Shown here: in pieces, positions 1,815-55,086 of the stretch | Numbering within the stretch: position 1 is the stretch's first letter | Layout: every line of letters begins with the position of its first letter | NCBI GenBank assembly: GCA_947632175.1 | Contig: CANROC010000009.1 | Location: 1 to 64,000 of the forward strand | DNA: 64,000 bases | Direction: 5' to 3' | From: an uncultured Oscillospiraceae bacterium | Lineage (GTDB): Bacteria > Bacillota > Clostridia > Oscillospirales > Oscillospiraceae | Position numbers and translations under genes: made by a program | The notes under the pieces: generated by a model | What the model was told of the DNA's origin: nothing | Databases searched by the model: none | The model's input: the letters and a program-made list of their open reading frames with translations, nothing else

Positions 1815-2080
1815 TTATACTAATATCTAATTAAAAGGAGCCATTCGCGACGGTCTTTTTCGCATCGTCGTCGCTGAACACGCTTTGCTTCGGGCTCCCT
1901 TTGGTCGCCCTCAGGCGCTGTGTTCGCTCCTCCTCCCCCCCAGCGGGCTTTGCCCGCCGGGGACCCCCGATTGCGTCAGCCGCCTTGGGAATACATACAG
2001 TATTCCCTGCGGCGTCTTCCTTGCCTGACACGAAAAATCCTCGACGCTCGGTGTCTCCTTTTAAATAGATATTAGTATAA
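1815..2080. mobile_element. MITE-like element with 26-bp terminal inverted repeats
   Basis: The left end TTATACTAATATCTAATTAA continuing to GGAG (1815-1840) is matched by the reverse complement of the right end (2055-2080) with a single mismatch. The complementarity continues imperfectly inward, and inner palindromes (GCGGGC TTT GCCCGC; GGGAATAC..GTATTCCC) are present. There is no transposase frame, so it would need one in trans. The inner part (about 1915-1965) resembles the repeat at 39323-39413 in the prophage. The right end lies 58 bases before the transglutaminase-like gene. I could not define a target-site duplication. Confidence 0.65.
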
Positions 2081-2138
2081 CGATAATTTTTCCGAATTTC
2101 CATGATTATACTTGTAATCGACAGACAGGAGTGGTAAA

Positions 2139-3497: not shown

Positions 3498-3523
3498 AAA
3501 ACCACAGAAAGGCGGTGCGCGGC

Positions 3524-5041: not shown

Positions 5042-5052
5042 GGAGGAACCCT

Positions 5053-5280
5053 ATGGACACCCTGCTTTCCATCCTGCGCTCCATCCACCCGGAGGTGGAC
5101 TTCGAGCTGTGCGACACCCTGATCGACGACTCCATCCTGGACTCCCTGGACATCATCGCCATCATCTCCGAGATCAACGCCCAGATGGACGTGACCATCC
5201 CCCCGGAGGAGATCGTCCCGGAGAACTTCAACTCCGCCGAGGCCCTCTGGGACCTCATCGAGAGGCTGGAAGACGAGTAA
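5053..5280 (+). CDS. DltC-like acyl/aminoacyl carrier protein
   Basis: A 75-residue acidic helical protein with the phosphopantetheine attachment region DDSILDSLDIIAI, in which the Ser of DSL (near residue 34) should carry the prosthetic group. Length and composition match DltC and acyl carrier proteins. It starts 12 bases after the adenylation gene with a strong AAGGAGGA site and is followed after 3 bases by the MBOAT gene, so it is the likely partner of both. Confidence 0.8.
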   Translation: MDTLLSILRSIHPEVDFELCDTLIDDSILDSLDIIAIISEINAQMDVTIPPEEIVPENFNSAEALWDLIERLEDE

Positions 5281-5283
5281 GCC

Positions 5284-11729: not shown

Positions 11730-11762
11730 AAGCGGTGATACAACGCTGTTGTACCACCGCTT
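11730..11762 (-). terminator. Original tRNA-Gln terminator, separated from its gene by the prophage
   Basis: AAGCGGTG..TACAA and TTGTA..CACCGCTT form a long stem directly downstream (minus strand) of the 3' tRNA remnant, followed by TGTTTC. Before integration it would have ended the tRNA-Gln transcript. Confidence 0.6.
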
Positions 11763-11810
11763 ATGGCAGCGGGAGAAGGATTCGAACCCTCACATACGGA
11801 GTCAGAGTCC
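11762..11810. repeat. attL: 49-bp attachment-site repeat (tRNA-Gln 3' fragment)
   Basis: Identical over 49 bases to 55011-55059. It includes the CCA, acceptor 3' strand, T arm and part of the anticodon stem of tRNA-Gln. After 11810 the sequence diverges from the tRNA, so this copy is only the displaced 3' part. Confidence 0.95.
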
Positions 11811-11989: not shown

Positions 11990-14900
11990 TCACCACTTCG
12001 GCAACACCAACCTCCCTCCTTCCCACCTGACCTTTCCCTTCTCCTCGTCCTCGTCCTCTTCCCCACTGTTCTCCCTCCGGGCTTTCTCCTCCTGCACCAG
12101 GTCATAGACCTCCTGTCCGACGCCGGTGGCGAAGGGGTTCTTGTTCGGCTTCCAGCTCGAATCCGCCAGCTGGTAGAGCACCGCCTTCTTCTCGTTGGAC
12201 AAATTCAGCCCCCGAATGGCGGCGATGATATCCGGCTGAGTGATCTTCCCGTCCCCGTCTGTGTCCTTGGCCCCGTAAACGGCTGCGTAGTAGTCCTCCA
12301 TACCGATCCCGTAATCCTGCGCCGTCTGCATCTTAAAGGCGGTGTAGCTGCTGCTGGGCTCCAGTATCCCGATAGCCGTGATCTTCTCCCGGTCCGTGAG
12401 CTTCGAATCAAACACCACCTTGCGCTGGGCGTCCGCCTTGCCTTCCTTCATCTTCTCTTTCTCGTCATAGCTCATCAGCATATCAAGGAGGTCCCCCGCC
12501 GCGCCGTTCTCGGCCAGCTCGTCAATGAGCTCGATTTCCTTCTCCGACGCCATCAGCGCGTAATACGGGATGATCTTCATGTCCTCCGGAATTTTCGAGG
12601 ACCTCAGAAGCTCGATCTGTACCTCCTTCTTGGACTTCTCCCCGGTCTTCTCGGCCCCGGTGAGGGCGATCACAAGGTCATCCGCGTCCCGGCCCCGGAC
12701 GCCGGCCTGGGTGAGCCCCTGATAAGCTCCCGTGGCCTTGGCGCTGTAGTTTGCAAACTCGCTGTTCACCCACCGCTGGGCCCCCGGGAAGGAGGACTTT
12801 CCGAAAAGCGACGCCTTCCCCACATTCCACGCTGTCTCCAGCGCGGAATCATTGTAAATCGGGTACTGCATGATGTCTCTTCCCTGGGCGTCCACGGTGT
12901 AGCTCCCGCCCTTTACAACGGCGCTGACGCCCTCCAGGATCTTCTTCATCTGCCCGCCGCCAAAGGGCAGGAGCAGATACGTCAGCGGCTTTCCGATCTC
13001 CTTGACCGCCGTATTCCAGCGCTTGCGCCCGCTTTGCCCGGAGTTTGTGGCCGCGCCCCACAGGTTCCCGATATCCGGAACCGCGCTGCTGATGGGCAGT
13101 CGTCCGCCGCCCAGGAGGCCGCCCACAAAGGGCATCTCCTCCGCCACGTTCTCGGCAAGATTGATCCCTGCCTGCCCGATGCCGGTTTTCCCCGTCTTGA
13201 AGGACGGCAAGTCTCCCGTGACGGCCCCTCCGACCAGGCTCACCAGGTTCGGAAGCTCGTATCCCGTCAGGTCCCCCACCGTGTCGTTGAGCATCCCAAT
13301 GGGATCAAGCGCGGGCCGTCGCCCGATGAGGTACTCATACACCTCATCGTAGAGCCACGCCCCCAGGGCGAACTTGAAGAGTGCCAGCGCCAGCGCCCCC
13401 AGTCCCTTTTCCTTGAAGCCCCTGGGCATATCCTTGCAGACATAGCTGAGCTGGTTGTTGACCTCCAGCTGGAACTGCGTAAAAAGCTTTGTCAGCGGAT
13501 TCGACCGGTTGAAAAGCGTCGGCGTCGATCCCTTGCTCCTGTCCGCCATGACCCCGGCCACCCAGGCGTCCGCCTCCTCCATGGCGGCGGCCTCGCTCAT
13601 CTGCCGGTTCTGGACGTTCTGTCGGTACCGTGCCCGCACCAGGGAATCCGCCGTAAAGTTATCGATCCACTCCATGGGCTTGGACATCGTGGCTGAAGCC
13701 TTCTGCTGCCACGTCCGCACCAACGGATCGGACCCACGCCGGTTTGTGAGGAAAGTGCTTTGCCCCACAAACCCGTCATCGGTTTTATATGCCTTCAGCG
13801 TGTCCCACATTCCGTGGATCAGCGTTCCCCGGTCCAGCATAGCCCCGCCCTGGGTGAGCGGTATGAAGTTTGTGAGCCACGACCCCGGATTGACGGCCAC
13901 CATGTTCGCCGCTACACGGCCCTCCAGCGTCTTCACCAGATTATACATATTCCGTCCCAGGGCCTGCTCCAGGTTCCTGTCGGCACGGCTCTTCTTGTTG
14001 GCCAGGAGATTCGTGTATTCCTCCAGCTCCACCACGAAATTTGAAAGCGCGAACCGCCCCTTTTCGTGGATCTGCTCGATCCTGTTCTGCTTGTCCTGTT
14101 CCTCCAGGGATTCGTTGGCCCGGATCTCGTCGATCTGCTTCCTGATGCCCTCGTCTCCCGTCCTGTACCTGGCCTGGGAGGCAAACGCCCGGAGCCGCTG
14201 GATGTTCTCCGTCTGATAGATCACGTCCGCCACGCCCTCGATGTACTTGTCAAAGCCCTCCACCGCGTCGTAGCACGTATCAAAGCCTGTCCGCTCCAGG
14301 GCGTTCCCGAACCACTGGATCCCCGGCCGGAAGGTATGCGTGAGCCCGTTGATGGTGGTGGGCAGGGCCGTGACCTCCGTGGAGATCCCCAGCGCCTTTC
14401 CGAAGAGTGCGATGATTCCGTCTCCCTCCCCCGGCTGGAAGTGGGGGAAGTACCCCTTTCTGTACGCCACGGGCTCATAGCCGTTGCGCACGCGGGAATC
14501 GTTCATCATCTCGAAAAGCTCGTCGTAGATCTTCCGAAACTCCCCAATAGCCCTGTCCACCTTGGCCCAGTCCATATTGGGGTTCGTCTCATAGAGCTCC
14601 TGCACCACGCCCCGCCAGTCGGAGAGGCTCTTGCCGTCCCGCTCCCGGACGTGCTTGGCCGTCTGGAGGTATTCGATGTTGTCCCTGGCTTCGCCCAAAA
14701 GCTGCACCGCGTGGGCCTCGCTGACCTTGTTTCCCTCGGCCACCTTCCGGGAAAGCTCCAGCGCCCGCACCCGGTCCCGCATCCGGTTCTTGAGCTTGTT
14801 GGCCTGGGCGGCGGCCTCGTGGACCGGCGTGAAGTACTTCGCGATGATCCGCTCCGCCAGCTTCTGGTCCTTCACGATGTCCCGGACGTTCCGCTCCATG

Positions 14901-17900
14901 GTTTCCCGTGAATATTGCCACCCTTTTTTGTCCTTCCACCCGTTGGCCGTCGCCAGATACTCGTCCGCCTCGTCCCGGAGGCTCGCCCTTCTCGCCTCGT
15001 TCCACTCCCGGATCTGCCGCGCGTACTGCTCATACGCCTGCTTGGCCTTGAAGACCTCCGTGATGCCCCGCACGTTGTCCCGCTCCGCCTTGAGGTCGGA
15101 GAGCTCGATATCCCCCCGCATGAGCCGCCCCACCTGCCGCTGGTCCTCGGCGGTCAGCAGATTCCTGGTGTTGACCTTCTCATAGTTTTTCTGGGCGTCC
15201 CGCGCCTTGGGGTAGAGCTCCTTGACCTCCTCCAGCGTCAGCGCCGCTCCGCCTGCCTCCGTCTTCGCCGCACGGTCCTCGGCGTACCGCTTCACAGTTC
15301 GAAGCTCGGCGAGCATATCCCCCACGGCGGAATCAAAGTCGTTGCGCATCCACGCCTTGTATTTCTCCGCGTTGGGCCCCAGCGCCTCGTCCAGCGTCCT
15401 TTCGCTGATCTCGATGCTCCTGCCCACCTCAAACATCCTGACGATCTGGTCCGCCGGGTGGGTGATGCTCTCTGGGAACAGCTCCGGGTACGTGGCCATA
15501 AGGTCCTGGTACGCGGTGTCCACCGGCGTCGCGCCCTCCTTGACGATCCGCAGCGTCCCGAAGGCCGCCTGACGGAACTGCTCAAAGGTATCATACCCCC
15601 GCACGTCCGGCTGGTCCGTCTCGGAGATGGTGATCGGCATTTCCCGCAGCCGCCTTTTCAGGCCCTTGTACTCATCGTAAAACTCCCGGTCCACCTCCAC
15701 GCCCCGCGCGTAAGCCTCCTCGAAGAGCTCGTCCCGCGTGTCCTGCGACACGCTCCCGTTCTCCAGATACTCCCGGCTCATCTTCCTGGCGACGTCCTGA
15801 AGATACTCTCTCCTGGCAAACCTGGGCACCTGCATCAAATCCCCGGCCTTATTCACAAGCCCCCTCTCAGCCCTCTGCAGCACCGTCTTCGCCTTCGCCG
15901 GCACCGTATCCCGGATATCCGCCCAGGCATCCTCCTGCCCCTCTGTGTCCGTCTGTGTCCCCTCGGCGATAGAATACCTGACATCCGGATTCGTTCTGTC
16001 AAAGGTCCCCCGGTTTCCCTCTGCCAGCTTGATCTGTTCCGGGCTAAAGGCGATAAACTCTTCACCGGAGTTGTTCACACCGTCATACCCCTGGCTCTCC
16101 AGGTATTCTCTGGCCATCACGCCGGCATTGTTTTGCCCTTTGAACCGATTGAGCGCCCGGTAAGCCACGCCCTCCGGGGCCGGATTTTTGATGTTGAGGA
16201 AATACGCCCGCACGTTCCCGCCGTAGCCCTCGGCGTCCAGTTCCCACGGTGAGAAGAAAGAGCCCTGAATGTCCATGGTGCTGCGGCCCTTGCTCCTGTC
16301 AAAAACATTGAAGTCCGCATCCGTCCCGTGGTACACCACCAGCGGCCGCCCGTCTTCGTCCACGACCTTGCTGGCCGACTGAGGATTGAAGTGCGAATCT
16401 TTACTCTTGACAGCAGCAAATAAATCTGCTACAGTGTTTATGTCGGCAGTTGGTTCTGACTGGGCTAGGGCATTTTGGCCTGAACCCTTAGCGCCCAACT
16501 GCCGACTTTCTATGTTCTGGAGCTGATAAGCCCGCTTCGCCGTTCCGGCGTTGTTTGGGTCATTCATCTCCTCCACATAGAGCTTCAGCAGCTCCGGCCC
16601 ATTCCCGATGTCCGCCACGGCATACAAGCTGTGCATCATAAGGGAGTTTTCCGATTTGGTCTTTCCCTGTGCGAAGCTGTCCAGCAGGACAGCTTTTTTC
16701 ACAATATCATTGATGTATGGAAGGAATCGCACCGCATTCCGGTTCACTGCGTAGGTATGTGCCTTGGTCTCATTGAAGATTTTCCCGGAAACCTGCACAT
16801 CCCATCCCGTGTCCTCGTTGCGCTGGACGCCCCTGGCGTCTCCCCGCTCATTGGCCACCTGTACCGGCGTCGTGTCGTTGGCCCTCCAGTCTCCGAACCA
16901 CGCCCGGAAGAACGGCGACTTCGGCCCAAGCTCCTGAAAATACCTGCTTGCAAAGGCCTCGGTTTTCTCAATGTCCTCGGTGGAGAAGTCGTTGACACTC
17001 TTTCTCCCGATGGTCTGTACAGCCTCTATTTCCTCGTTCGATATGCTGTACTGCGTCCTTCCCCCCTCCATCTCCAGCGCCCGCCCGTCGGAGTCCGTCG
17101 TCGGCGCGGCAATCGAGTACTGTGCCCCGCTCCGGCTTTCCTGATTGAGGACAACACGTTCGATCGCGCTGTCGTCAAAGGCTACCGCGCCGTCGCTTGT
17201 CTTCACCCCGGCAATGCCCGCGGGCTCTATCACGCGGTCATAGAACCACTGTATGAGCTCATCGTTGTCATACGCCCTCGCCGAATCCACAATGTCCTTC
17301 GGGTCAAATTCCTCCGCTATCTCCTCTCCGGTGATATTCTCAAGGTAGTCGCTCAGAATCATCGGCGCATTGGCAAACCCTTCGCTCCTGTCCTCGTCCC
17401 ATTTCTCGGTGATCTCTTCTTTCAGGTCATTTATGTCCGTCAGAAGCTCATGCCGGATCGCATACACATCTCCATTGCCGCCCAGAAGCCTTTCGTCCGC
17501 TCTGATCCAATTCTTCGGATCATCCGCAAACATGGCATGGCCGTAATCGCTCATCGGCGAGCCTCCGCTTGCGACCCTGTAGCTCACGTCATCCGGCAGC
17601 ACCGGGTTTCCGTCAGCATCCGTATTGACCCTCAAAAGCTCCCGCCCGTCGGAGTCCGTCGTCGGCGCAATAGAGTACTGCGTCCCTCTTCCTTCCATCT
17701 CCAGCGCTCTTCTCGCCTCCGGGCGGAGCTGGCCGTCCACCTCGTACTCCTCCCAGTTCTGCCGGAGGTACTCGTCCACGCTCATGTTCGACCGGTGGGC
17801 GGCGTTGAGGATCTGTCTGGCCCCGTCGGCTCTCGTGCCGGCGGGGCTTTGCCGTGCCCCGGTGTCGGACACGGAGTTGACATACCGCCGTATCTCCTGC

Positions 17901-20900
17901 ACGGACGCCCCGGAGCTCAGCATGGTCCGCAGCCTCCCGGCCACCTCCCGCCTGTCTGCCGGCGCGGCGATGGAGTTTTGTCCTCCGCCTTCTACCTCCA
18001 GCCCGACCCCCAGCGCGTCATAGATTCGGTCAAACTCCTCCTCGGTGATCTCCCCGGTGGCCAAAGCCTCCCTGGCCTGCTGCAGGGCCGCCTCGCTGTC
18101 CACGGAGCTCCTGGTGTCCCGGAGCGCCTGGGCGTAGAGGTCCCGGGCGCGGCGAATAAAAGCCCGCTCCTTCGCGGCCTCCCTCTTCGTGATTTTCGCC
18201 AGCAAGCTGTCCAGCGCGTCCAAAATCCTCCGCCCCAGCGACCGGTTCTCCCGGACAAGGCTTGCGATGGATTCCGGGCTCGTCAGAAGCTCCCGCTCCA
18301 CATACTGCGCCACGACCTCCTTCATGTCGTCCCCGCGTTTGGTGTCCAGCTCCACGCCGGCGGCGGCGTACCGCTCCCGGACCTCCCGGAGCATCCCGTC
18401 CAGGTCCCCGCCCGTGTCCATGATCCGCCGCTGGACCAGCCGCGAAAACTCGTCATAGCTCCCGGAGCTTTCAATGGAGTGGGTCAGCTCATGGGCGATG
18501 ATCTGTCCCGTCTCGTTTCCGTAGGCGGCGTTGACGTAGATGGTCCCGCTTGTATAATGTCCGCGTTTGGCGTTCTCCCCCTCGTTGATGAAGACGATCC
18601 GCCGCCCCGTGGCGTCGGCGATCCTGCGGGCCACGCCGATCTGTTCCTCCGTGGCCCCGCTCTCCCGGCCGGAGCGCTCCAGCTCCCGGAGGTTCCCGGC
18701 CCGCTCCCGGCGCTCCTCGATCTCCCTGCCGGTGGGCAGCGTCACCGCGGCCCTCTGCCGCCGGGTGATCTCCTCCTGTTCGGCCCTGGCGATTGCCTCT
18801 TCCTCCCGGCGGATATCGTCCGCCTCGGCCATGAGCTCCTCCTGGACCCGGCTCACGTCCTCGCCCCTTGCCATGGCCTCCTGGAATGCCCGCGTGCGCT
18901 CCTCCAGCGCCCGCTTCCTCTCCGCCACGGCCTCGTCCCGCTCCTCGATGGTCATCGGCGCGGCGGGGATCTCCTCCTCCGTCTCGATGCCGGCGCTTTG
19001 CTCCCGCGCGGCCGGCGCGGCGGTGTCCTCGCGGCCCGTCTCGTTCTCTTCGTTCTCCCGGGCGATCCTCTCCTTTTCCATCTGCGTGTAGTTGATAAGA
19101 TTCCCCACATCCGCCCTGGTGATCTCCCGGCCGGCGTTGATCTTCTTCTCCAGGGCGTCCGCCATCTTGTAGGCGTCCGACCCCGCCCCGGTCTGCCGCG
19201 CTTCGTCGATGATCCCCCGGACCGTGCTCTCGTCCCAGTAGCTCACCGCCGCGCCGGTCCTGTTGGCGTTCACCGATGTGGATATGGCCCCAGGGATGCC
19301 CATGACGCCGCCGGACAGCGCCCCGCCCAGCGCGTCGAGCCCGATCTCCGCCGCCTTGTCCTTCAGCGCCGCAATGAAGGCCCTGTCCTCGTCCCACTGG
19401 GGGTTGGCGTCCATGTACGCGCGGATCGCCTGCCTCCACTCGCTTTGATCTCCGGCCACAAGCACGTCGGCAAACCAGTTGATAAGGTCGCTGGCCGCCT
19501 CCTCCTCTGCCTCGGCTCCCATGTTCGCAAGCAGCCCCCCGATGGCGCCCTTGCTCCACGTCTTGGAGCTGAGAAGAGTATCCAGGCTCACCTTCTCCGT
19601 GACCACCTCCGCGAGCCCCGCCACGGTCCCCAGCGTGAACGCCTGCCCGTCGGAAAGCCCCCGGTCCTTGGCCGAGATCACCGCGTCCGCTGCCGCGCCG
19701 GTGCCCATAATGGCCAGCGAAAGGTCGCTCCCGCCTCCTATCGCCGCGCTGGTGAGGAAGTCCCCCATACTCATTCCGGTCTGATAGAGGAAGGACCCCG
19801 CCTTCCCCCACTTCCCGCTGGCCTCGATCTTCTTGGACACCTCATCCCGAATGGCCGTGTTCGTGTACGAAAACTTGTTGTATCCGGCGTTCTGGTCGAT
19901 CTTCCCGTCATCGAGATAATCCGCCGCCTGCCCGAGATACGAGATCCCCTTCGCGGGACTTGTGAGCACGCTGAAAAGCGAGGCCGCCGCCGGGCTTTCC
20001 TCGGCATACTTCCTCCAATATGCCTCTTCCGTCTCCCTCTGCCGCGCCGTCAGAGTGCCCTCCAGGTATTTAAGATACGCTCCGGCGCTCTCCGCTCCCT
20101 GAGTGGCATAGACATAGTTATACATCGCCACCTCTTCCGGCTCCATCTCCTGGAGAAAGCTTTTGCTCACGCCGAGAACGCCGGCGTTTGTCGTCACATC
20201 GTTCACATTGCCGACTCCTACGGCCTCCTCATTTTTGTTGACATACTCGTATGTAAAATCATCGTAATTGTTGATGGGGTACATGCCGGAGACGGCGTTA
20301 TAGTCTCCCTTCCATCCCTCCTTTTTCACATACCCGCTCTTCTCTCCAAAGTCCTCCTTCCCCCGCAGCTCCTCCCATTTGAGCGACTGCGCGTAACCCA
20401 GCTCCTCCTCCAGCCGCTGGACCCGCTCCCGGGCCTCCTGCTCCTGCCTCACGGCCTCTTCATAGGCCCTCTGCCGCGCGGCCGCGTCCGGCGCCGGCGC
20501 CCCGTCCGGCACCACGGTCCCCTGCGCCGCCAGAAGGTCGCTCTTGGCCGACACGGCCAGTCTCCCGGCCTTGTCCGCCTCGCTCCTTGCCTTCTCCAGC
20601 TCGGCCTCCACCGCGCTCTCGTCCCGGATGCTCCCCCGCCATTTGTTCCAGCTCTCCCCGGACCCCACGCGAAAAGATCCATCATACTCTTCTCCCTCCT
20701 GGATTCCGAAGAAGCTGTTGTAATCGTCCCGGACTCTTTTGTATTCGTCCAGCACCATCTGCCCCACGGGGTCGCTGACGAGCTTATCATACGCCTCCTG
20801 GGCGGCGTTTTCCCGGTTCCTGGACTCCGTCAGCTGCTTTGCGCCGCCCATGTATAGGTCAAACTTCGCCGGCGTTGTGTCACGGAGCGCCTCGTCGAAA

Positions 20901-21262
20901 TAGATCTTCTGGATCTTTGCCCTCTGCTCGCTGTTGGCCTTTTCCCGCTCCACGTCCCTCTTGGCCTGCTCCACCCGCCCGTAGTAGCCCTCCAGGAGCT
21001 TCGTAGCCGTGTCCAGCTTCTCCGTCACCCCCTTGGCCGCGTCGGCGTAGGTGACATATCCGCCCGCCCCCGCGGCCTCATCGGCGCTCACGGTGGTCTG
21101 CGTCCTCCCCACGTTTATCGGCCCCTGTGTCGGGCGTGCCTGTTCCTCCGCGATAGCCCTCTGGAGCCTGAAGCGGTTGTTCGCCCGCTGCTGCTCCTGC
21201 TGCGCCCGCTCCCGCTCCTTTTCCTGTTCGATTGCCCTTTTGATCCTGTCGGATACCGTCAT
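11990..21262 (-). CDS. Giant polyvalent virion protein (3090 aa) with zincin and ADP-ribosyltransferase-like modules
   Basis: Last gene of the late operon; starts with a GGGGGA site. Residues 1-300 and 700-850 are charged coiled coil. A zinc metallopeptidase motif IIAHELTHS lies near residue 925. From about 1480 there is a conserved region (WDVQVSGKIFNETKAHTYA) and, near 1640-1800, an ADP-ribosyltransferase-like module with VVYHGTDADFNVFD. The region near 2450-2650 (NPGSWLTNFIPLTQGG, LTKLFTQFQLEV) resembles the large polyvalent-protein-associated domain class, and DTDGDGKITQPDI near 3000 is an EF-hand loop. Modules are separated by YSIA-type linkers. In other phages such multi-enzyme proteins are packaged and injected with the genome. 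Specific domain names need a profile search. Confidence 0.7.
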   Translation of the reverse strand: MTVSDRIKRAIEQEKERERAQQEQQRANNRFRLQRAIAEEQARPTQGPINVGRTQTTVSADEAAGAGGYVTYADAAKGVTEKLDTATKLLEGYYGRVEQAKRDVEREKANSEQRAKIQKIYFDEALRDTTPAKFDLYMGGAKQLTESRNRENAAQEAYDKLVSDPVGQMVLDEYKRVRDDYNSFFGIQEGEEYDGSFRVGSGESWNKWRGSIRDESAVEAELEKARSEADKAGRLAVSAKSDLLAAQGTVVPDGAPAPDAAARQRAYEEAVRQEQEARERVQRLEEELGYAQSLKWEELRGKEDFGEKSGYVKKEGWKGDYNAVSGMYPINNYDDFTYEYVNKNEEAVGVGNVNDVTTNAGVLGVSKSFLQEMEPEEVAMYNYVYATQGAESAGAYLKYLEGTLTARQRETEEAYWRKYAEESPAAASLFSVLTSPAKGISYLGQAADYLDDGKIDQNAGYNKFSYTNTAIRDEVSKKIEASGKWGKAGSFLYQTGMSMGDFLTSAAIGGGSDLSLAIMGTGAAADAVISAKDRGLSDGQAFTLGTVAGLAEVVTEKVSLDTLLSSKTWSKGAIGGLLANMGAEAEEEAASDLINWFADVLVAGDQSEWRQAIRAYMDANPQWDEDRAFIAALKDKAAEIGLDALGGALSGGVMGIPGAISTSVNANRTGAAVSYWDESTVRGIIDEARQTGAGSDAYKMADALEKKINAGREITRADVGNLINYTQMEKERIARENEENETGREDTAAPAAREQSAGIETEEEIPAAPMTIEERDEAVAERKRALEERTRAFQEAMARGEDVSRVQEELMAEADDIRREEEAIARAEQEEITRRQRAAVTLPTGREIEERRERAGNLRELERSGRESGATEEQIGVARRIADATGRRIVFINEGENAKRGHYTSGTIYVNAAYGNETGQIIAHELTHSIESSGSYDEFSRLVQRRIMDTGGDLDGMLREVRERYAAAGVELDTKRGDDMKEVVAQYVERELLTSPESIASLVRENRSLGRRILDALDSLLAKITKREAAKERAFIRRARDLYAQALRDTRSSVDSEAALQQAREALATGEITEEEFDRIYDALGVGLEVEGGGQNSIAAPADRREVAGRLRTMLSSGASVQEIRRYVNSVSDTGARQSPAGTRADGARQILNAAHRSNMSVDEYLRQNWEEYEVDGQLRPEARRALEMEGRGTQYSIAPTTDSDGRELLRVNTDADGNPVLPDDVSYRVASGGSPMSDYGHAMFADDPKNWIRADERLLGGNGDVYAIRHELLTDINDLKEEITEKWDEDRSEGFANAPMILSDYLENITGEEIAEEFDPKDIVDSARAYDNDELIQWFYDRVIEPAGIAGVKTSDGAVAFDDSAIERVVLNQESRSGAQYSIAAPTTDSDGRALEMEGGRTQYSISNEEIEAVQTIGRKSVNDFSTEDIEKTEAFASRYFQELGPKSPFFRAWFGDWRANDTTPVQVANERGDARGVQRNEDTGWDVQVSGKIFNETKAHTYAVNRNAVRFLPYINDIVKKAVLLDSFAQGKTKSENSLMMHSLYAVADIGNGPELLKLYVEEMNDPNNAGTAKRAYQLQNIESRQLGAKGSGQNALAQSEPTADINTVADLFAAVKSKDSHFNPQSASKVVDEDGRPLVVYHGTDADFNVFDRSKGRSTMDIQGSFFSPWELDAEGYGGNVRAYFLNIKNPAPEGVAYRALNRFKGQNNAGVMAREYLESQGYDGVNNSGEEFIAFSPEQIKLAEGNRGTFDRTNPDVRYSIAEGTQTDTEGQEDAWADIRDTVPAKAKTVLQRAERGLVNKAGDLMQVPRFARREYLQDVARKMSREYLENGSVSQDTRDELFEEAYARGVEVDREFYDEYKGLKRRLREMPITISETDQPDVRGYDTFEQFRQAAFGTLRIVKEGATPVDTAYQDLMATYPELFPESITHPADQIVRMFEVGRSIEISERTLDEALGPNAEKYKAWMRNDFDSAVGDMLAELRTVKRYAEDRAAKTEAGGAALTLEEVKELYPKARDAQKNYEKVNTRNLLTAEDQRQVGRLMRGDIELSDLKAERDNVRGITEVFKAKQAYEQYARQIREWNEARRASLRDEADEYLATANGWKDKKGWQYSRETMERNVRDIVKDQKLAERIIAKYFTPVHEAAAQANKLKNRMRDRVRALELSRKVAEGNKVSEAHAVQLLGEARDNIEYLQTAKHVRERDGKSLSDWRGVVQELYETNPNMDWAKVDRAIGEFRKIYDELFEMMNDSRVRNGYEPVAYRKGYFPHFQPGEGDGIIALFGKALGISTEVTALPTTINGLTHTFRPGIQWFGNALERTGFDTCYDAVEGFDKYIEGVADVIYQTENIQRLRAFASQARYRTGDEGIRKQIDEIRANESLEEQDKQNRIEQIHEKGRFALSNFVVELEEYTNLLANKKSRADRNLEQALGRNMYNLVKTLEGRVAANMVAVNPGSWLTNFIPLTQGGAMLDRGTLIHGMWDTLKAYKTDDGFVGQSTFLTNRRGSDPLVRTWQQKASATMSKPMEWIDNFTADSLVRARYRQNVQNRQMSEAAAMEEADAWVAGVMADRSKGSTPTLFNRSNPLTKLFTQFQLEVNNQLSYVCKDMPRGFKEKGLGALALALFKFALGAWLYDEVYEYLIGRRPALDPIGMLNDTVGDLTGYELPNLVSLVGGAVTGDLPSFKTGKTGIGQAGINLAENVAEEMPFVGGLLGGGRLPISSAVPDIGNLWGAATNSGQSGRKRWNTAVKEIGKPLTYLLLPFGGGQMKKILEGVSAVVKGGSYTVDAQGRDIMQYPIYNDSALETAWNVGKASLFGKSSFPGAQRWVNSEFANYSAKATGAYQGLTQAGVRGRDADDLVIALTGAEKTGEKSKKEVQIELLRSSKIPEDMKIIPYYALMASEKEIELIDELAENGAAGDLLDMLMSYDEKEKMKEGKADAQRKVVFDSKLTDREKITAIGILEPSSSYTAFKMQTAQDYGIGMEDYYAAVYGAKDTDGDGKITQPDIIAAIRGLNLSNEKKAVLYQLADSSWKPNKNPFATGVGQEVYDLVQEEKARRENSGEEDEDEEKGKVRWEGGRLVLPKW

Positions 21263-21274
21263 GTCTGCTCCCCC

Positions 21275-22831
21275 TTACTCGATGCCGTATCTGGCCGCGA
21301 AGAACTCGAAATCACTGTCCGTGATGTTGCCCTGCTCGTAGTTTGTCAGGATCGTCTCCAGGACCTGGCTCTTGGTGAGCCCGCCCAGCTTGGATTCGAT
21401 CATGTTGTAAACATTTCTGCCGCCGGCGCTCAAGCTGTCCACCATCTGCTGCCCGCCGGTCATGGAATACTCCACCGGTGTCACGTCCGCGCCGTTGAAG
21501 TAGGGCCTTCCGGTGTAATATTCATAGTCCCGCGCCGTCTGGGCCCCCACGGCCCCCGTCTCGATTTGGTCCTTCACCTGGTCCCACGAGTTTACGGGCT
21601 TATAATCCGTCTCTTCCCCGCCAGACCGTGCGGACGCCGCGCCTGCCTCGGCCCCCTCATACCCGGACGTGTCCACCCCCAGCGCCTGGAGTCCGGAGTA
21701 GTCCCCGTACTGGGCCTGGAGCTGGGCCATCTGGAGCCGCCGCTGATAATCGTCCTGGTCCCTGGCCAGCGCGTCCTGGGACTGCCCGTAGCTGAACTGG
21801 CGCTCCCAGTTTTGCTGGGCAAGGGCGTCCTGCTCACGCTGGTAGTCCATCTCCCTCTGCCACATGTCCTGGGAGGATAGATACCCGCTGGTATCTATGC
21901 CGAGGGCCTGGAGGCCGGAGTAGTCGCCGTACTGGGCGCGGAGGAGGGCGTCGTCCACGGCCCTTTGCCGCTCCTGCTGGCTTTGGTACCCGGCGGTGTC
22001 CACCCCCAGGCCGCTGAGGCCCTTATAATCCCCGTACTGCGCCGCCGTCTGCGCCCGGTCCCAAAGCTCCGCCTGGTTCTGCCGCTGGTTGGCCACCTCG
22101 TCCATGTGCTGGCCGTAAGCAAAGCTCCTGTCGGTGTTGTATTGATTCAGCTGCCCGAGGTACCGCTGGTAGTCTACGTTGTCCGCGTCCTGCACGGACT
22201 GGAGCTTCACCCGGTCCATGTCAAAGTCGTTCATGTACTTCTGGTAGGCGTACTGCTCCAGCTCCGGGATCTTGTCCGTCAGCTGCGCGTTATAATAGTT
22301 GGCCGCCTGCCCCGCCGCTGTGCCGGCATAGCTGGAGGGCAGCCCCCCGCTCATGGCCGCGGCCTGTCCCATGGCGTCGGCGCTGGCCCTCTGCCCCTCC
22401 CGGATGTACTGCTTCCGGTACTGCGAATAAAGCGGGTCCTTCTCCACGTCATAGCTGAACGCCGGCCGGTTCACCAGCCCCCGCAAAAGCTCCTGGATCT
22501 GCCCGTCATACCGGCTCGTGAAGCTCGGGGCCTCCGCGTAGCTGAAATCCCTGGGCGACAGGGAATCCCGATAGTATTGGCTCCCGTCCTCCCCGGCGGT
22601 GTACCCGCCGAAGCTGGACCGCACCCGCTCCGCCCCGGCGTTGGCCAGCGCCCGCGCCTGGTCGTTTGTGGCGTTTGCGTAGTCCCGCTTGTAGCTGAGG
22701 ATACTCCGCCCCGCGTCCGGGTGCTCCTGGGCCAGCCTCATGTCCGCCTCCGAAAACTGCCCCTTCAGCCCCGAGCCCTCCAGCTCCTTCAAAAAGTCCT
22801 CCCACGTATATCCCAAAGTACTTCCCGCCAT
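21275..22831 (-). CDS. Repeat-rich phage virion protein
   Basis: A 518-residue Gln/Tyr/Ala-rich protein. It carries three tandem units of about 45 residues, each with AQYGDYSGLQALGVDTSGY followed by a Gln/Arg-rich helix. The C-terminal part (SLSAGGRNVYNMIESKLGGL) looks globular. A GGAGG site precedes the ATG. It lies between the gp10-like gene and the giant polyvalent gene with a 12-base gap to the latter, which suggests an internal or ejected virion protein. I do not recognise a named family. Confidence 0.55.
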   Translation of the reverse strand: MAGSTLGYTWEDFLKELEGSGLKGQFSEADMRLAQEHPDAGRSILSYKRDYANATNDQARALANAGAERVRSSFGGYTAGEDGSQYYRDSLSPRDFSYAEAPSFTSRYDGQIQELLRGLVNRPAFSYDVEKDPLYSQYRKQYIREGQRASADAMGQAAAMSGGLPSSYAGTAAGQAANYYNAQLTDKIPELEQYAYQKYMNDFDMDRVKLQSVQDADNVDYQRYLGQLNQYNTDRSFAYGQHMDEVANQRQNQAELWDRAQTAAQYGDYKGLSGLGVDTAGYQSQQERQRAVDDALLRAQYGDYSGLQALGIDTSGYLSSQDMWQREMDYQREQDALAQQNWERQFSYGQSQDALARDQDDYQRRLQMAQLQAQYGDYSGLQALGVDTSGYEGAEAGAASARSGGEETDYKPVNSWDQVKDQIETGAVGAQTARDYEYYTGRPYFNGADVTPVEYSMTGGQQMVDSLSAGGRNVYNMIESKLGGLTKSQVLETILTNYEQGNITDSDFEFFAARYGIE

Positions 22832-23136: not shown

Positions 23137-24726
23137 TCAATACTTCCAGCTCCCCGAATACGCCTCCCTCGTCAGCGCATAGAGCCTCCACTGTCCCACG
23201 CCCTCCAGCTTCAAACGCATATGGTCCGCTCTTCGCGGGATGATGGGCAGGACGAAGCTCCTCTTTTCGCTGGCTTTCAGCGTCCCCTTCTTCTCCCACC
23301 GCCCGCTGGAATCAAACTGCGCGTACACCGTCACCTCCGCGCCGGCGTCCAGCTCCATGCGCAGCTGGAGCTTGTTCGTCCCCTTCACATTGGCGTCCCC
23401 GTCCGTGAAGTCCCCGAACTCCGCCATGGACCGCACCGTCTCCTCCGCCACGGCCCCCTCCGGGACCGTGCGGGCCTGACCCCAGAGCCATACGTGCCCC
23501 TCGCTGTCCAGCATATAGAGCTCCCCGTCCCAGGCAAAGCCCAGCATCTCCCTGGCGTCCTCCCGGTGCCAGAGCCCCCGCTCGGTGTCGTAGACGAACA
23601 GCTGATAGACGCCCCCGGCGTCCTTCATGCTCACGTAATACTTCACCCCGTCGCTGCCTCCCACCGCCTCCCGGTACCGGTCCGTCCCGAAGGCGGCGTG
23701 GACGGACCCCGGCATCCCGCCGGCGTAGTCCACGATCCCCGTGCGGCTTAAGTAGAAAAGCGTCTCCCCGGCGATGGCCGGCGACCGGGCGCTCCCCTCC
23801 TCCACCCCCAGGGACGCCGCGCCCATCACCTGGAAGTTGGAGGGCTTGTCCCCATAGACCTTATAGATGCTCTCCTCCTTGAAAAAGCAGGGGTACCCCT
23901 TGAAGGCGCACCCCGCCGTGAAGTCCCCGGCGGACCCCACCGACACGGCGTAGCTGTCCGTGGAAAGCCCGTCGAACACGTTCCAGTTGAAGATATCCCC
24001 CAGCTTGGAGGCGTAGATCTCGTCCCCCTTACACCCCCACAGCCGATTCTCGTTGGAGAAGAGGAAGTCCATATCCGGCGCCGTCCTCGCCACCGTCAGC
24101 GCCGCCTCCTGGTCCCCGCCCTCGCCGATGACGAAGGAATTCTCATAAAACCGCAGCTCGTCCCCCTCGATCTCCCGGACCACGATGGTCACGTTGTTCT
24201 CCGGATGGACGCCGCAGCCGGAGATGCTCACCGCGTCCCCCACATGAAACCGGGAGCCCCAGTCCGCGCCGGCGGCATAGACGGTATTGGCCTTAGCGCT
24301 CTCGCCGTAAATGCTCCCGTCCCGGAGTGCTCCGCTCCCGCTCCATCTCGCCTCCATGGACCCGAACTCCCCTGTGAGCCGGTTATAGTACGCCTTGTCC
24401 GGCATCACGATCACATAGGCCCCCATGGCGGCGAAGCTCTTCCGCCCGTCCGTCACCTGGCCCACCACCCGGTCCCCGGCGTAGAGGTCCGTCCCGTCCA
24501 CGAAATAAAGCCCATCGGAGGCAAAGATCCCGTTGGGCTTTTTGAGCGTCCGCACAAGATACCGGGGCTTCCTGGGGGCCAGCAGCGGCGCTAAATCGCT
24601 GGTCATGTTCTCCATGTCCCAAAGCTCCCCGTCCCCGGCGTAGAGGTTATGGTTGTATCCCCCGAAGGCCGTGAGCCCCCGCTTTGTGAGTCTGTCCCCG
24701 TTTACCGCCTCAGGAAGTCCGCTCAT
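23137..24726 (-). CDS. Phage tail/head-completion protein, P22 gp10-like
   Basis: A 529-residue beta-rich protein with many WxxG/YxxG strings (LYAGDGELWDMENMTSDLAP, WDGELYMLDSEGHVWLWG), as in beta-propeller or packaged-DNA-stabilisation proteins of short-tailed phages. The last 80 residues form a sugar- or tail-binding-like beta sandwich. GGAGGAG precedes the ATG, which overlaps the stop codon of the next gene upstream (ATGA). Assignment to the gp10-like group rests on size, beta-rich pattern and synteny, not on a diagnostic motif. Confidence 0.5.
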   Translation of the reverse strand: MSGLPEAVNGDRLTKRGLTAFGGYNHNLYAGDGELWDMENMTSDLAPLLAPRKPRYLVRTLKKPNGIFASDGLYFVDGTDLYAGDRVVGQVTDGRKSFAAMGAYVIVMPDKAYYNRLTGEFGSMEARWSGSGALRDGSIYGESAKANTVYAAGADWGSRFHVGDAVSISGCGVHPENNVTIVVREIEGDELRFYENSFVIGEGGDQEAALTVARTAPDMDFLFSNENRLWGCKGDEIYASKLGDIFNWNVFDGLSTDSYAVSVGSAGDFTAGCAFKGYPCFFKEESIYKVYGDKPSNFQVMGAASLGVEEGSARSPAIAGETLFYLSRTGIVDYAGGMPGSVHAAFGTDRYREAVGGSDGVKYYVSMKDAGGVYQLFVYDTERGLWHREDAREMLGFAWDGELYMLDSEGHVWLWGQARTVPEGAVAEETVRSMAEFGDFTDGDANVKGTNKLQLRMELDAGAEVTVYAQFDSSGRWEKKGTLKASEKRSFVLPIIPRRADHMRLKLEGVGQWRLYALTREAYSGSWKY

Positions 24727-32219: not shown

Positions 32220-33233
32220 TTACGCGCTCTTCAGCTGCGTCCCGCCTGTGACGCCGCCCACGCAGGCGAAGCGCCAGTCGTTGAACGTGGCGGAGAACCG
32301 TGCCCGGCCCAGCCACTCGTTGGCGTCGTTGTGGGCGACCTCGCTGCGCACCTCCAGCTTCACCCGGTCGGTCCACAGCGCCCCGCCGTAGGTCTTGTTG
32401 TACCCGGAATCCATGAGGATCCAGGGGGCCGTGTCGGACTTGGGCAGCAGCTCCTTGAGGTAGCTGGAGATGATCACCCTCCAGCGCCCGTACTGGAAGT
32501 TGAAGGCGTTGTTGCCCGTGGTGGGCTCCTTGTCCGCGCCGATAGCCGCCAGCACCGCCGTCATCAGGTCCGGGTCGTCGGGGATGAGAATGGTGTCCGG
32601 CGCCACGGCCAGCAGCTCCCCGTTGTCCCCCTTGAAGTGGTGCATGGCCACCTCCGCCCGCGTCAGCGCGTCCAGGCTGAACGCGTCGGAGAAGCAGTTG
32701 GACTGCTTGAGCTTCTCGTCCACCTTCGCCGGATGCTTGGTGGAGAATACCGTCTCCTTGTCGGCTGAGCGGATGTCGAAGGTCTTGTCCTTGTGGGAAA
32801 ACTCCTTCTTCTGAGCGACGGCGCTGGCATACGCCTGGATGCCGAAGATCTCCCGCCCCCTGTAGTAGGCCGTGGTGAAGGCCGTGGGCTGCTTCTTCAG
32901 GTCCATGAGCTTCCCGTCCTCGATGGCCTCCTTGGAGACGGAAAAGCTCTGCTTCCACGTCTCGTACTCCAGGAACTTCTTGAAGCCCTCCTGGAAGGAT
33001 GTGCGCGGGTACTCCCCGTTCTCGCCCACCGGCTCGAAGCCGTCCATGGCCGTCATGGTGACGATGGCGTCCACCGCGTTCTTGCTGGTGTCCATGAGGA
33101 AGAGGTGCGGCAGAAGGCTCGCCTTCTCGAACTCCTCCCCTCTCTTCTCGATAAACCTCTTGATGGGGGCCTGGATCTTGCCGAACACGCTGTCCTGCAG
33201 CCCGCTCCCCTCGGTAAACGTGATTCCTGCCAT
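32220..33233 (-). CDS. Major capsid protein
   Basis: A 337-residue protein with an N-terminal helical arm (DSVFGKIQAPIKRFIEKRGE), central mixed alpha/beta part and C-terminal WLGRARFSATFNDWRFACVG. It lies between the decoration and adaptor genes, in the order scaffold, decoration, capsid known from tailed phages. Size and position fit an HK97-fold capsid subunit. GGGAGA lies before the ATG. No cleaved pro-domain is evident; the scaffold is a separate gene. Confidence 0.75.
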   Translation of the reverse strand: MAGITFTEGSGLQDSVFGKIQAPIKRFIEKRGEEFEKASLLPHLFLMDTSKNAVDAIVTMTAMDGFEPVGENGEYPRTSFQEGFKKFLEYETWKQSFSVSKEAIEDGKLMDLKKQPTAFTTAYYRGREIFGIQAYASAVAQKKEFSHKDKTFDIRSADKETVFSTKHPAKVDEKLKQSNCFSDAFSLDALTRAEVAMHHFKGDNGELLAVAPDTILIPDDPDLMTAVLAAIGADKEPTTGNNAFNFQYGRWRVIISSYLKELLPKSDTAPWILMDSGYNKTYGGALWTDRVKLEVRSEVAHNDANEWLGRARFSATFNDWRFACVGGVTGGTQLKSA

Positions 33234-34885: not shown

Positions 34886-35026
34886 TCACTTCCCGGATCT
34901 CAGATCCGTCCCGGTCTTCACGCTGGACTTCCCGCCGTTCTTCCCGGTCTTGTACACCGCCTCGACCACCTGGGTCCCGGTGTTCTTGATCTTCCCGGCA
35001 TACCCGCTCTTACTGTTGTCCGCCAT
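34886..35026 (-). CDS. Small basic phage protein (46 aa)
   Basis: MADNSKSGYAGKIKNTGTQV followed by a Lys/Gly/Thr-rich tail. The ATG has GGGAGGTGA upstream and overlaps the end of the portal gene by 17 bases. Function unknown; a conserved small protein between portal and scaffold is plausible because of the good ribosome site. Confidence 0.55.
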   Translation of the reverse strand: MADNSKSGYAGKIKNTGTQVVEAVYKTGKNGGKSSVKTGTDLRSGK

Positions 35027-37118
35027 TTATCTCACCTCCCTTCGTTGTCGCGAAATGTGTGTCCGTAGGGGTCGCCGTCATCTCCGCCCCGGCTCCCCCC
35101 GCGCTCCCTCCCGCCTGCATCGCGGCCTGCATGGCGATCATCTGCGCCTCCCTCTGCTGCTGGGCGGCGAGGGCCTCCTGCTGGGCCTTCTGGCGCTGCT
35201 TGAAGAGCTCCTTCGTCTCGGCCGCGCCGGGGTAATGGAGCATCTCCATCTTGGTCCAGAAGAAAATCATCGTCTCGAGATCGTCCAGCGGCCCGAAGGC
35301 CCCGGTCTGGAGATTAAGCCGCGTCTCCTCCCACATGGCCTCCCGGTTGCTGGCCAGGGTCGCGCTGGTGTCGTCCACGGCAAAGATAAACTGGTCGTTC
35401 CAGTACCACTCCCCCGCCGCGTCCCGCTCCAGGAAGTCATAGCGGTTGAATTCCTCGTATTCCCGCTCCCCGGCGGCGTTATATTTCGGCACCGGCCTCG
35501 GCTCGTCGGCATAGGCCAGCTTCATCTTGAAGATCGCCTCATAAAGCCGCTGGAAGGCCGCGTTTTTCATGATCCGCTTGCTCTCCAGCCTCCCCGCCGT
35601 CTGCGCCGCCGCGAACTGCTTGGCCGTCCCCGACGTGGCTGTGGTGTCCCGCCGCCCCTGGAAGGAATCCGTCACGCCGATGACCTGCCGCATCTCCTCA
35701 TAGGCGTGATCCAGCATCGCTACATCCTGGCTGATGTCACCCTCCATGTCATAGACGTCTATGTAGCTCTTGTCCTGGAGGTTATCGAGCCGGATAAGCT
35801 TCATCTCCCCCGGATCGCGCTCGATGGTGGCGTCCTTGGGGAGGCTCATGTAGCTTCCGGCGGTGAGGAGCTTGTCCAGCATCTTCGTCTCCAGCCGGTT
35901 CACCGTGTTCTGCTGGCTGGCGATAGCGTCCACGTCCGACCCGCCGAGAAACCTGCCGAAGACGGAGATGTTCTTCTGGAGCACCACCGGGAAGATGTTG
36001 GGCTTGTAGTAGGGAAGCCTCGTCCTCTTCCACGCCGGCGCCCCGTCCGGCCCCACCTCCAAAACCGGCGCCCCGTCCGGCCCCCGCTCCAGCGCCGGTA
36101 TCACCGACCCGTCGGACCGCACGATATCCGCCGCCGGCTCCTCAAAGTCCTCCTCGCTCTCCTCCCACTTCGTCCCCCCGCAAAATGGACAGATCCCCCG
36201 GCTGTTCGGCTTCCCTACGGGCCTCCCGTTGCCTCCGTCCTCGCGGTCGTTTCTTTCAACGCTGTACGGGCCGCCGCCCACGGCGGCCCCCACCCCCGTC
36301 CCCGGGTAATTCCCGTCCAACGTGGCCTCCGCCATCGTCACGCTTCCCGGCGCCGGCTCCAGCGCCCCGCACTTGGCGCACCGCCTGAGTCTCCGCGCCT
36401 GGTAGTCCTCCAGGTCCTCCAGCTGCGTGTCGTTCACCCAGCTATAGAGCCCGATCCCGCCCTTGTCGTTGCGGTAGTAGGCCACGTACTGCGTGACCAT
36501 ATCCTCGGCGGTGCTCTCCCCGGTCCCCCTGGCGTCCGGCTCGGACTCGCTCTCCTCGGAAACGTCCACGCCGTACCGCCGCTTGACGGACCCCTTGGTC
36601 TGCGGGAGCTTCAAAATGATGTGGTCCATGTCCTCGATGCCCGTGTAGACTCCCGCCTGGGGGATGATCTGCTTGGGATGCAGGAGCGACACCGCCACCT
36701 CCCCGGCGGTGGTGTGCGTCCGCTGGGAGGAATCCCACTCCACCAGATACGCCCCGCCCCCCTGGATGGGCACCGTCCGCTCCTGCTGGTCGTTGAGCTC
36801 CTCGAAGCTCATCCGGTCCAGCTCGTCCCGGAGCATATCCTCGATGAGCCGCGCCAGCCTCTCGTCCCGCTTCCGCCGCGCCGTCACCTTCGGCTGGGGG
36901 ATGGAGGAGCTGACCTGCGCCTCGATGAGCTCTAAAATCACGTTCCTCACGTGCGGCGCCCTGTCCGGCGCCTCCTCCCGCGCGATGGGCTTGATCCGGT
37001 CCGACCCCAGATACAGCCCCTCCCGCTCGTCCATCCTGGAAAGCTCCCCTTCATACGCGCTCTCGTCCGCCTCCAGCTTCCCCTGCCAATATTCCAGCTT
37101 CTTGTCCGTCTTCGGCAT
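35010..37118 (-). CDS. Portal protein with an inserted zinc-ribbon-like segment
   Basis: A 702-residue portal of the short-tailed phage type: N-terminal YWQGKLEADESAYEGELSRM, a central core with PHVRNVILELIEAQVSSSIP, and a Gln-rich C-terminus (FKQRQKAQQEALAAQQQREA). A dodecamer of such proteins forms the DNA entry channel. Residues about 235-320 hold an extra loop with two Cys pairs (CAKCGALEP and CPFCGGTKWEE) around a Gly-rich stretch. The DNA of that stretch contains a REP-like palindrome at 36268-36289. Terminase lies upstream and scaffold downstream, as expected. Confidence 0.8.
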   Translation of the reverse strand: MPKTDKKLEYWQGKLEADESAYEGELSRMDEREGLYLGSDRIKPIAREEAPDRAPHVRNVILELIEAQVSSSIPQPKVTARRKRDERLARLIEDMLRDELDRMSFEELNDQQERTVPIQGGGAYLVEWDSSQRTHTTAGEVAVSLLHPKQIIPQAGVYTGIEDMDHIILKLPQTKGSVKRRYGVDVSEESESEPDARGTGESTAEDMVTQYVAYYRNDKGGIGLYSWVNDTQLEDLEDYQARRLRRCAKCGALEPAPGSVTMAEATLDGNYPGTGVGAAVGGGPYSVERNDREDGGNGRPVGKPNSRGICPFCGGTKWEESEEDFEEPAADIVRSDGSVIPALERGPDGAPVLEVGPDGAPAWKRTRLPYYKPNIFPVVLQKNISVFGRFLGGSDVDAIASQQNTVNRLETKMLDKLLTAGSYMSLPKDATIERDPGEMKLIRLDNLQDKSYIDVYDMEGDISQDVAMLDHAYEEMRQVIGVTDSFQGRRDTTATSGTAKQFAAAQTAGRLESKRIMKNAAFQRLYEAIFKMKLAYADEPRPVPKYNAAGEREYEEFNRYDFLERDAAGEWYWNDQFIFAVDDTSATLASNREAMWEETRLNLQTGAFGPLDDLETMIFFWTKMEMLHYPGAAETKELFKQRQKAQQEALAAQQQREAQMIAMQAAMQAGGSAGGAGAEMTATPTDTHFATTKGGEINGGQQ
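36268..36289. repeat. REP-like palindrome inside the portal gene
   Basis: GGGCCGCCG..CGGCGGCCC with flanks GTAC and CCCCGTC, nearly identical to the intergenic copy at 37234-37255. It encodes part of VGAAVGGGPYSV within the Cys-flanked portal insertion. Confidence 0.65.
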
Positions 37119-55010: not shown

Positions 55011-55059
55011 TATGGCAGCGGGAGAAGGATTCGAACCCTCACATACGGAGTCAGAGTCC
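55011..55059. repeat. attR: 49-bp attachment-site repeat within tRNA-Gln
   Basis: Identical to attL at 11762-11810. Here it forms the 3' two-thirds of the intact tRNA gene, so integration rebuilds the tRNA. Confidence 0.95.
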
Positions 55060-55086
55060 GCTGTGCTACCTTTACACAATCCCGCT
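55013..55086 (-). tRNA. tRNA-Gln (anticodon CTG)
   Basis: A 74-base cloverleaf including an encoded CCA. Acceptor AGCGGGA pairs with TCCCGCT, discriminator G. The anticodon stem GCGGA/TCCGT encloses the loop CTCTGAC, giving anticodon CTG, which reads CAG. The T loop GTTCGAATC is canonical. It serves as the phage attachment gene. Confidence 0.92.

Follow-up and report, generated by a model that had tools for sequence, protein, structure and literature searches.

The window, i.e. the whole stretch of 64,000 nucleotides from an uncultured Oscillospiraceae bacterium that was analysed, carries a prophage with a single very long gene close to one of its ends. The genes and repeats that define the prophage are as follows:

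11990..21262, minus strand: gene of the 3090-residue polyvalent protein, an ORF with an ATG start
11762..11810, no strand: attachment (att) repeat copy 1, 49 bp, from a repeat search
55011..55059, no strand: att repeat copy 2, overlapping tRNA-Gln (55013-55086) and near the integrase
53632..54873, plus strand: tyrosine integrase (profile match)
37266..38774, minus strand: terminase large subunit (profile match)
35010..37118, minus strand: P22-like portal protein (profile match)
32220..33233, minus strand: major capsid protein (profile match)
23137..24726, minus strand: 529-residue protein matching phrog_511 'internal virion protein'
21275..22831, minus strand: gene of a 518-residue protein, a candidate ejection partner, 12 bp upstream of the giant gene

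The giant ORF is exactly the one reported in the earlier note (3090 residues, same ends) and is encoded on the minus strand. Its 9273 bp represent 21.4% of the approximately 43,298 bp that the copies of the 49-bp repeat enclose, in agreement with the earlier estimate of over a fifth of the prophage. A single match was obtained when its own genome was searched with the giant protein. The late cluster runs in the order terminase, P22-like portal, capsid, tail fibre, CHAP lysin, phrog_511 protein, 518-residue protein and giant gene, which is the final late gene ahead of the attachment repeat. The last three genes (phrog_511, 518 and 3090 residues) reproduce the T7 gp16-like arrangement, where the final and largest ORF comes after smaller internal-protein genes. 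The earlier note spoke of a short-tailed phage; the giant gene lies directly behind the virion genes of a phage whose portal is P22-like. In the searched subset of 11 late genes, none was identified as a sheath or tape measure, and the 962-residue fibre gene also matches profiles called 'tail protein' and 'minor tail protein'. The 518-residue protein received no PHROG or Pfam name. In the phage collection, the records hit by it and by the phrog_511 protein (4 and 11, respectively) are all unannotated ones of faecal phages, and neither the phrog_511 nor the portal protein gave a useful result in PDB sequence searches. A dlt operon in the host flank was considered as a proof of teichoic acids and set aside, DltA (257.7 against 476) and DltB (151.2 against 375) both scoring under the NCBI cut-offs.

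Within the giant protein, the following parts were delineated, all encoded on the minus strand:

19064..20245, minus strand: conserved N-terminal domain, residues ~340-733 (phrog_22978 at 206-733, E 4e-85)
18083..18745, minus strand: zincin metallopeptidase, residues ~840-1060 (relatives' alignment; phrog_87, E 0.013; iterated profile)
18479..18493, minus strand: HELTH catalytic motif, residues 924-928 (motif and alignment)
18026..18091, minus strand: SHOCT-like segment, residues 1058-1079, scoring 19.7, below the Pfam cut-off of 27
17123..17656, minus strand: cassette X, residues ~1203-1380, absent from the close relative L031
16553..16828, minus strand: LPD3 (PF18798), residues 1479-1570 (Pfam E 6e-12, 46.2 bits against 27)
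16001..16360, minus strand: ART-PolyVal (PF18760), residues 1635-1754 (Pfam E 2e-23, 84.1 bits against 31.2)
12164..15208, minus strand: C-terminal, mostly helical family region, residues ~2019-3033 (profile and predicted model)
13349..13405, minus strand: conserved hydrophobic helix, residues 2620-2638 (hydrophobicity scan of the family)
12230..12265, minus strand: EF-hand-like loop, residues 3000-3011 (EF-hand_6 12.3, below the Pfam cut-off of 25)

The earlier note had described a polyvalent virion protein with coiled coils, a HELTH zincin, an ART-like module, LPD-like regions and an EF-hand loop. ART-PolyVal and LPD3 both pass their Pfam cut-offs and the HELTH site aligns as HExxH in seven of eight relatives, the eighth (L042) being a fragment without the site. 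The union of zincin, ART and LPD3, with unlike activities, in one chain is thus supported. For the EF-hand, the loop pattern is indeed present at residue 3000, while the EF-hand_6 score is under the Pfam cut-off. Such a loop occurs within the last 220 residues of nine of the 66 family members described below, this one included, against 0.45 expected from shuffling. As to the putative coiled coils, the composition is highly charged in two stretches, D/E/K/R making up 35% of residues 1-330 and 45% of residues 740-880.

The C-terminal region is the part by which relatives could be recognized. A profile built from nine sequences, called A1, matched 53 IMG/VR loci and 27 genome loci in two scans, with record titles from Oscillospiraceae, other Clostridia, Bacilli and Erysipelotrichaceae. 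The 95 matching ORFs include some overlapping copies; 77 are complete and score above 180 bits, and 66 of them are non-redundant, the window included. These 66 members range from 990 to 3532 residues and carry the C region towards their end, with at most 396 residues after it. No relatives were obtained by tblastn of residues 201-733 against phages nor by an IMG/VR scan with the single protein as query. Of 250 genomes sampled from the host family, 35 (the host's among them) match residues 1-2991 at E<=0.001, mostly in a partial and mosaic fashion. At E<=0.001, Pfam recognizes nothing in the C region of the giant protein or of three relatives (L032, L033, L037). The window member matches no PHROG family and any PHROG family matches at most one of the nine profile members. 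Its tblastn comparison with the phage collection found one record at E<=0.001, an unannotated faecal phage scaffold. The PDB sequence search gave nothing significant, the sole hit being a VPS35-like protein (E 0.065). Neither the C-region model nor the cargo model, which are weak (mean pLDDT of 64.2 and 47.8, respectively), had a Foldseek match in the PDB at E<=0.001. A fold search of BFVD yielded 43 matches at E<=0.001 with diverse names and TM-scores of at most 0.48, and is counted as support only. Of the 50 matches listed, 46 bear a suffix _2 to _4, which we take to denote later pieces of long proteins.

The most hydrophobic 19-mer of the C region falls within 20 columns of one place in 52 of the 66 members. 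A hydrophobicity of 1.4 is reached by 41 of 66 shuffled C regions and 25 of 66 real ones. A hydrophobic helix at one place would suit a contact with the membrane, as described for gp16-like proteins (PMC8954989); a buried helix would suit the same pattern equally well. HExxH is found in none of the 66 C regions. No account of the C-terminal region or of the linker motif discussed below was found in the accessible portions of the open-access literature. The C-region family and the exchange of cargo are new, the polyvalent kind of protein itself being already known. The C-terminal region, the cargo exchange and the repeats flanking the cassette are all absent from the earlier note.

Homologues of the 518-residue gene were detected in 23 of the 66 family loci and of the phrog_511 gene in 19, the window included in both cases (undetected in 43 and 47, respectively), many of these loci being short or diverged. 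PHROG scans of two genes lying immediately upstream in relatives gave no name. In five of seven other loci tested, a gene matching phrog_3287 'virion structural protein' lies two or three genes upstream.

The second conserved part is the N domain. Its iterated profile (residues 340-700) was detected in 52 of the 66 members and not in the other 14, and the iterated zincin profile in 38. The order N domain, zincin, C region is respected in all 34 members with matches to both N domain and zincin. It is present as well where the C region is absent, in phage BF1-TP2 and in several proteins of the host-family sample. Among large ART proteins of 15 other viral contigs, some of them cut by the contig end, eight carry the N domain and one of these also the C region. 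By these profile matches, N domain and C region are not bound to occur together.

Between the conserved regions lies a bay of variable cargo, in which a Pfam scan of the 65 other members at E<=0.001 identified LPD3 (17), LPD23 (14), ART (11), MuF_C (8), DUF6782 (5), PBECR5 (4), PBECR3 (3), SprT (3), SHOCT (2), RadC (1), GvpG (1) and DMAP_binding (1). The MuF-C and PBECR cargos are predicted nuclease-type domains. HExxH is present in the cargo of 44 of the 66 members. In the 52 bays that could be measured, it occurs in 39 against 0.6 expected from shuffling. None of the 11 bays shorter than 567 residues contains it and 39 of the 41 longer ones do; the median bay length is 1092 residues with HExxH (39 proteins) and 335 without (13 proteins). 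All 13 ART carriers have HExxH, compared to 31 of the 53 others (Fisher p 0.003). These associations are confounded by length, longer bays being roomier for any module, and the relatives share ancestry so that family counts are non-independent events. They suggest that the zincin accompanies cargo rather than DNA delivery as such.

Comparison of close relatives shows how the bay changes. Two pairs of direct repeats lie around cassette X:

17048..17080, no strand: direct repeat D3 copy 1, 33 nt, from a repeat search
17675..17707, no strand: D3 copy 2, 88% identical, 627 nt apart
17076..17107, no strand: direct repeat D2 copy 1, 32 nt, from a repeat search
17637..17668, no strand: D2 copy 2, 97% identical, 561 nt apart

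L031, a protein of 2920 residues, matches residues 1381-3090 at 95.9% and lacks residues ~1200-1381; a single D3 copy was found within the 90 nt inspected at its junction. L034, a fragment from the same genus, has two cassettes at the cassette X point. L149, a 5.5-kb contig whose ORF is open at both ends, is 95.9% identical from residue 1787 onward; before this residue it encodes a different ART together with further modules, a D-I-R-Y-S-V linker lying in between. Cargo thus differs among relatives whose C-termini are 95-97% identical, and the three comparisons therefore indicate that cassettes are gained and lost ahead of a nearly constant C region. At cassette X, the borders are formed by DNA repeats located in the linkers.

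The zincin has no Pfam match in the giant protein and is the best-modelled part of the predicted structure of the cargo region. Besides the HExxH, the glutamate of a later helix expected in zincins is conserved. Two features of the widespread phage zincin clade described in the accessible text of PMC5512222 differ here. The Asp three residues after HExxH is replaced by Glu (HELTHSIE), and the His of the RGHY motif, taken as the strand-2 His of the clade, is Tyr in L150 and Phe in L152. For the ART, 98 aligned stretches were reduced to 54 by dropping 44 that were short or duplicate. The strand-1 His is His1645, and His occupies this place in 50 of the 54, the window's own included. At strand 2, where a Tyr is canonical, the protein has Phe1669; the 54 stretches have Phe (24), Tyr (20), Trp (4) or another residue or a gap (6), and Phe is, by this alignment, a common variant although a non-canonical residue. 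At the acidic place of strand 5 stand Glu1734-Glu1735; Glu is more frequent than any other residue in each of the two columns (14 and 26 of 54) and invariant in neither. The earlier note had envisaged that catalytic residues might be missing from alignments; the HExxH, His1645, Phe1669 and Glu1734/1735 are all present. A PDB sequence search with the ART profile returned 14 weak matches, 10 of them PARPs (best E 0.31). The ART is probably an enzyme that modifies proteins.

In the comparison with the same-genus L031, the ART has a dN/dS of 0.06, the C region 0.12, LPD3 0.14, the zincin 0.20 and the N domain 0.38. With L150 the ART has 0.05, the C region 0.12, the zincin 0.15 and the N domain 0.16, rough values with synonymous sites near saturation. 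The ART is the most constrained part of the giant protein, and the low ratios imply that ART and zincin are under constraint.

Short motifs recur in the linkers between modules:

17669..17680, minus strand: QYSI, residues 1195-1198 (motif search)
17111..17122, minus strand: QYSI, residues 1381-1384 (motif search)
17042..17053, minus strand: QYSI, residues 1404-1407 (motif search)
15968..15979, minus strand: post-ART motif RYSI, residues 1762-1765 (motif search and ART alignment)

The pattern [QRK][YF]S[ILV] occurs 51 times in cargo against 11.5 expected, nine times in the C region against 11.3 and 10 times in 435 neighbouring ORFs against 24.3. Its [QR] form occurs 40 times; among the permuted patterns, the runner-up, which overlaps the motif, occurs 21 times and none of the rest more than 12 times. 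Once occurrences are clustered by homology of their flanks, the [QR] form retains 11 clusters, and the best-placed of the 23 permuted patterns retains 10. The motif is found seven times against 4.6 in 22 wider ART proteins. The motif was thus rejected as a proven cleavage signal, the control for independence having failed (11 against 10 clusters) and the wider ART proteins showing little excess. Copying by descent and recombination accounts for the excess, no cleavage function being needed. Motif and zincin co-occur (23 of 44 proteins with against 3 of 22 without, p 0.003); above 900 residues the figures are 23 of 44 and 2 of 7, so that length confounds the association. After the ART, a D-x-R-[YF]-S tail is a conserved feature of its own: among those of the 54 ART stretches that have a residue at the position, D is found in 39 of 46, R in 36 of 43, Y/F in 36 of 42 and S in 35 of 35, counts that are favoured by the ends of local alignments. 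Zincin cleavage at the linker motif is possible.

Several known systems help to interpret this architecture. Polyvalent proteins were described by Iyer et al. 2017, who already proposed zincin processing and injection (PMC5512222). The giant protein resembles the phage-type proteins of the accessible part of that work in its disparate enzymatic domains, zincin hub, ART-PolyVal, LPD3 and late-gene context; the C-terminal family region, cargo bay and cassette-flanking repeats were not found in that part. In the Bcep22-like podovirus JC1, the DarB-like gp69 has 4515 residues and takes up 22.1% of the genome. It and the preceding 510-residue virion protein gp68 were both found in virions by mass spectrometry, according to the available sections of PMC9144972. 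JC1 is likewise a short-tailed temperate phage with a giant protein after a gene of about 510 residues; gp69 differs in being named for its DarB/helicase-like content (PMC9144972). Two prophages of Clostridium clostridioforme LM41, phi1 and phi4, carry an 8-kb 3' ORF with LPD3 similarity covering almost 20% of the phage. By description they are similar, being podovirus-like, from gut Clostridia and with a giant 3' ORF, for which the accessible text gives no domain dissection (PMC11318856). The last and largest gene of the ejection cluster is also the position of T7 gp16 and P22 gp16. In T7 gp16, an enzyme makes up the N-terminal part, and putative transmembrane helices lie in the C-terminal part (available text of PMC8954989). 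The giant protein is two to five times larger than T7/P22-type ejection proteins (609-1337 residues, PMC8954989) and, in contrast to the T7 gp16 type, has no Pfam transglycosylase match. It may work like the T7 and P22 ejection proteins, with which there is no significant sequence or fold match in the PDB.

The gene order, the analogy with JC1 gp69 and the conserved C region together point to an internal protein of the virion that leaves it along with the DNA, and the giant protein is probably carried in the virus particle. On balance, we lean towards the reading that it is an internal virion or ejection protein whose exchangeable cargo is ejected with the DNA, the zincin freeing effectors and the ART modifying host proteins. 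The protein of this temperate short-tailed phage would play a role like that of the largest ejection protein of podoviruses, built as a carrier. Its chassis would consist of the approximately 1000-residue C region with the hydrophobic helix, usually with the N domain, and would be packaged and ejected with the DNA, as gene order, conservation and analogy suggest. The bay between the conserved regions holds zincin, cassette X, LPD3 and ART as exchangeable modules, an arrangement apparent from the sequence itself. After entry, the zincin would most likely cut linkers and set effectors free, a release made attractive by the fact that the cargo sits inside the chain. The ART would use NAD+ to modify host proteins to the benefit of the phage. 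The cargo is replaced by recombination, and for cassette X the comparison of relatives places the exchange points at the linker DNA repeats. A broader version is doubtful, namely that such an ejection chassis is standard in short-tailed phages of Clostridia and Bacilli, that cassettes swap at linker DNA and that the [QR][YF]S[IL] linkers are the release sites of the zincin.

Somewhat unlikely, though the best of the alternatives, is that the protein is packaged and injected whole and unprocessed, the zincin either cutting host proteins as an effector or being required for packaging. The virion RNA polymerase of N4 is packaged unprocessed although encapsidation depends on its MPTase region, and full-length transfer occurs for some conjugative polyvalent proteins, as the accessible portion of PMC5512222 reports; the failed independence control of the linker motif agrees with this. 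The effectors are nevertheless inside the chain, ahead of the conserved C region, and the zincin tracks the cargo, from every ART carrier (13 of 13) to none of the bays below 567 residues (0 of 11). Improbable is an action in the producing cell, where an assembly or core protein would use its zincin to mature virion proteins and its ART to act late. The gene does belong to the late virion cluster, in which no separate head maturation protease was named among the genes searched, and the capsid gene matches two capsid-with-protease profiles only over positions 407-636/644 and 422-617/668. The replacement of cargo by nuclease-type domains (MuF_C, PBECR) and various ART types is unlike a conserved maturation enzyme, and short-bay members do without HExxH. 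It is hardly credible that the modules are functionless, decaying leftovers of mosaic evolution and that the conserved regions alone matter: L034 does have a 787-residue fragment ending at the ART start with no C-region match there, but catalytic residues are kept, the ART ratios are below those of the C region and N domain in both comparisons and those of the zincin, above the C region, are below the N domain.

Polyvalent proteins have so far been defined by lists of domains, and what carries them has been less clear. The recognizable C region provides a handle by which one large polyvalent group can be found and compared. Its members form a natural series, some lacking HExxH and others carrying several effectors, which lends itself to the study of cargo loading and release. 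If the reading as an ejection protein is true, large ejection proteins would extend to Firmicutes phages. The available text of a 2022 review describes them as common in podoviruses of Gram-negative hosts and absent from phi29-like phages (PMC8954989).

ORF60 of Pseudomonas phage F116 differs by having no match to the C-region and N-domain profiles, but is likewise a giant late protein, whose ART is 40.8% identical and preceded by two HExxH sites.

EF-hand-like loops were identified in nine of the 66 non-redundant complete proteins sharing the conserved C-terminal region, the window protein included, versus 0.45 expected, with a maximum of three loops per protein. Calcium might play a role in assembly or ejection. 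In the 3090-residue polyvalent protein, the loop is found close to the C-terminus:

12230-12265, EF-hand-like loop.

The bay, i.e. the variable cargo stretch preceding the C-terminal region, contains two or three HExxH sites in some related proteins, for example those of loci L134, L135 and L168, perhaps corresponding to duplicated zincins. In two crAss-like phages (L192 and L193), the ADP-ribosyltransferase-like domain (ART) is close to the C-terminus of proteins of 2518 and 2532 residues. It follows an HExxH motif by about 170 and 250 residues, respectively, and a D-x-R-Y tail is present. An ORF of the related locus L034 looks like a prophage remnant:

L034:7594-9957, minus strand, 787-residue ORF that contains LPD3 as well as two cassettes and stops where ART begins.

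Four further features were recorded in the window:

11762-11810 and 55011-55059, exact 49-bp repeat; one of its copies overlaps tRNA-Gln, next to the integrase.
16631-20857, plus strand, 1408-residue ORF with a GTG start, antisense to the gene of the 3090-residue protein.
28872-31760, 962-residue protein resembling a tail fibre; it includes a collagen-like stretch and a long part rich in alanine.
3278-6864, host genes similar to dltA, dltC and dltB.

The repeats are likely the attachment sites, which would delimit a prophage of about 43.3 kb. The antisense ORF is probably a base-composition artefact; several other long ORFs also lie on the opposite strand. The three dlt-like genes all score under the NCBI curated cut-offs and perhaps constitute a different acylation system.
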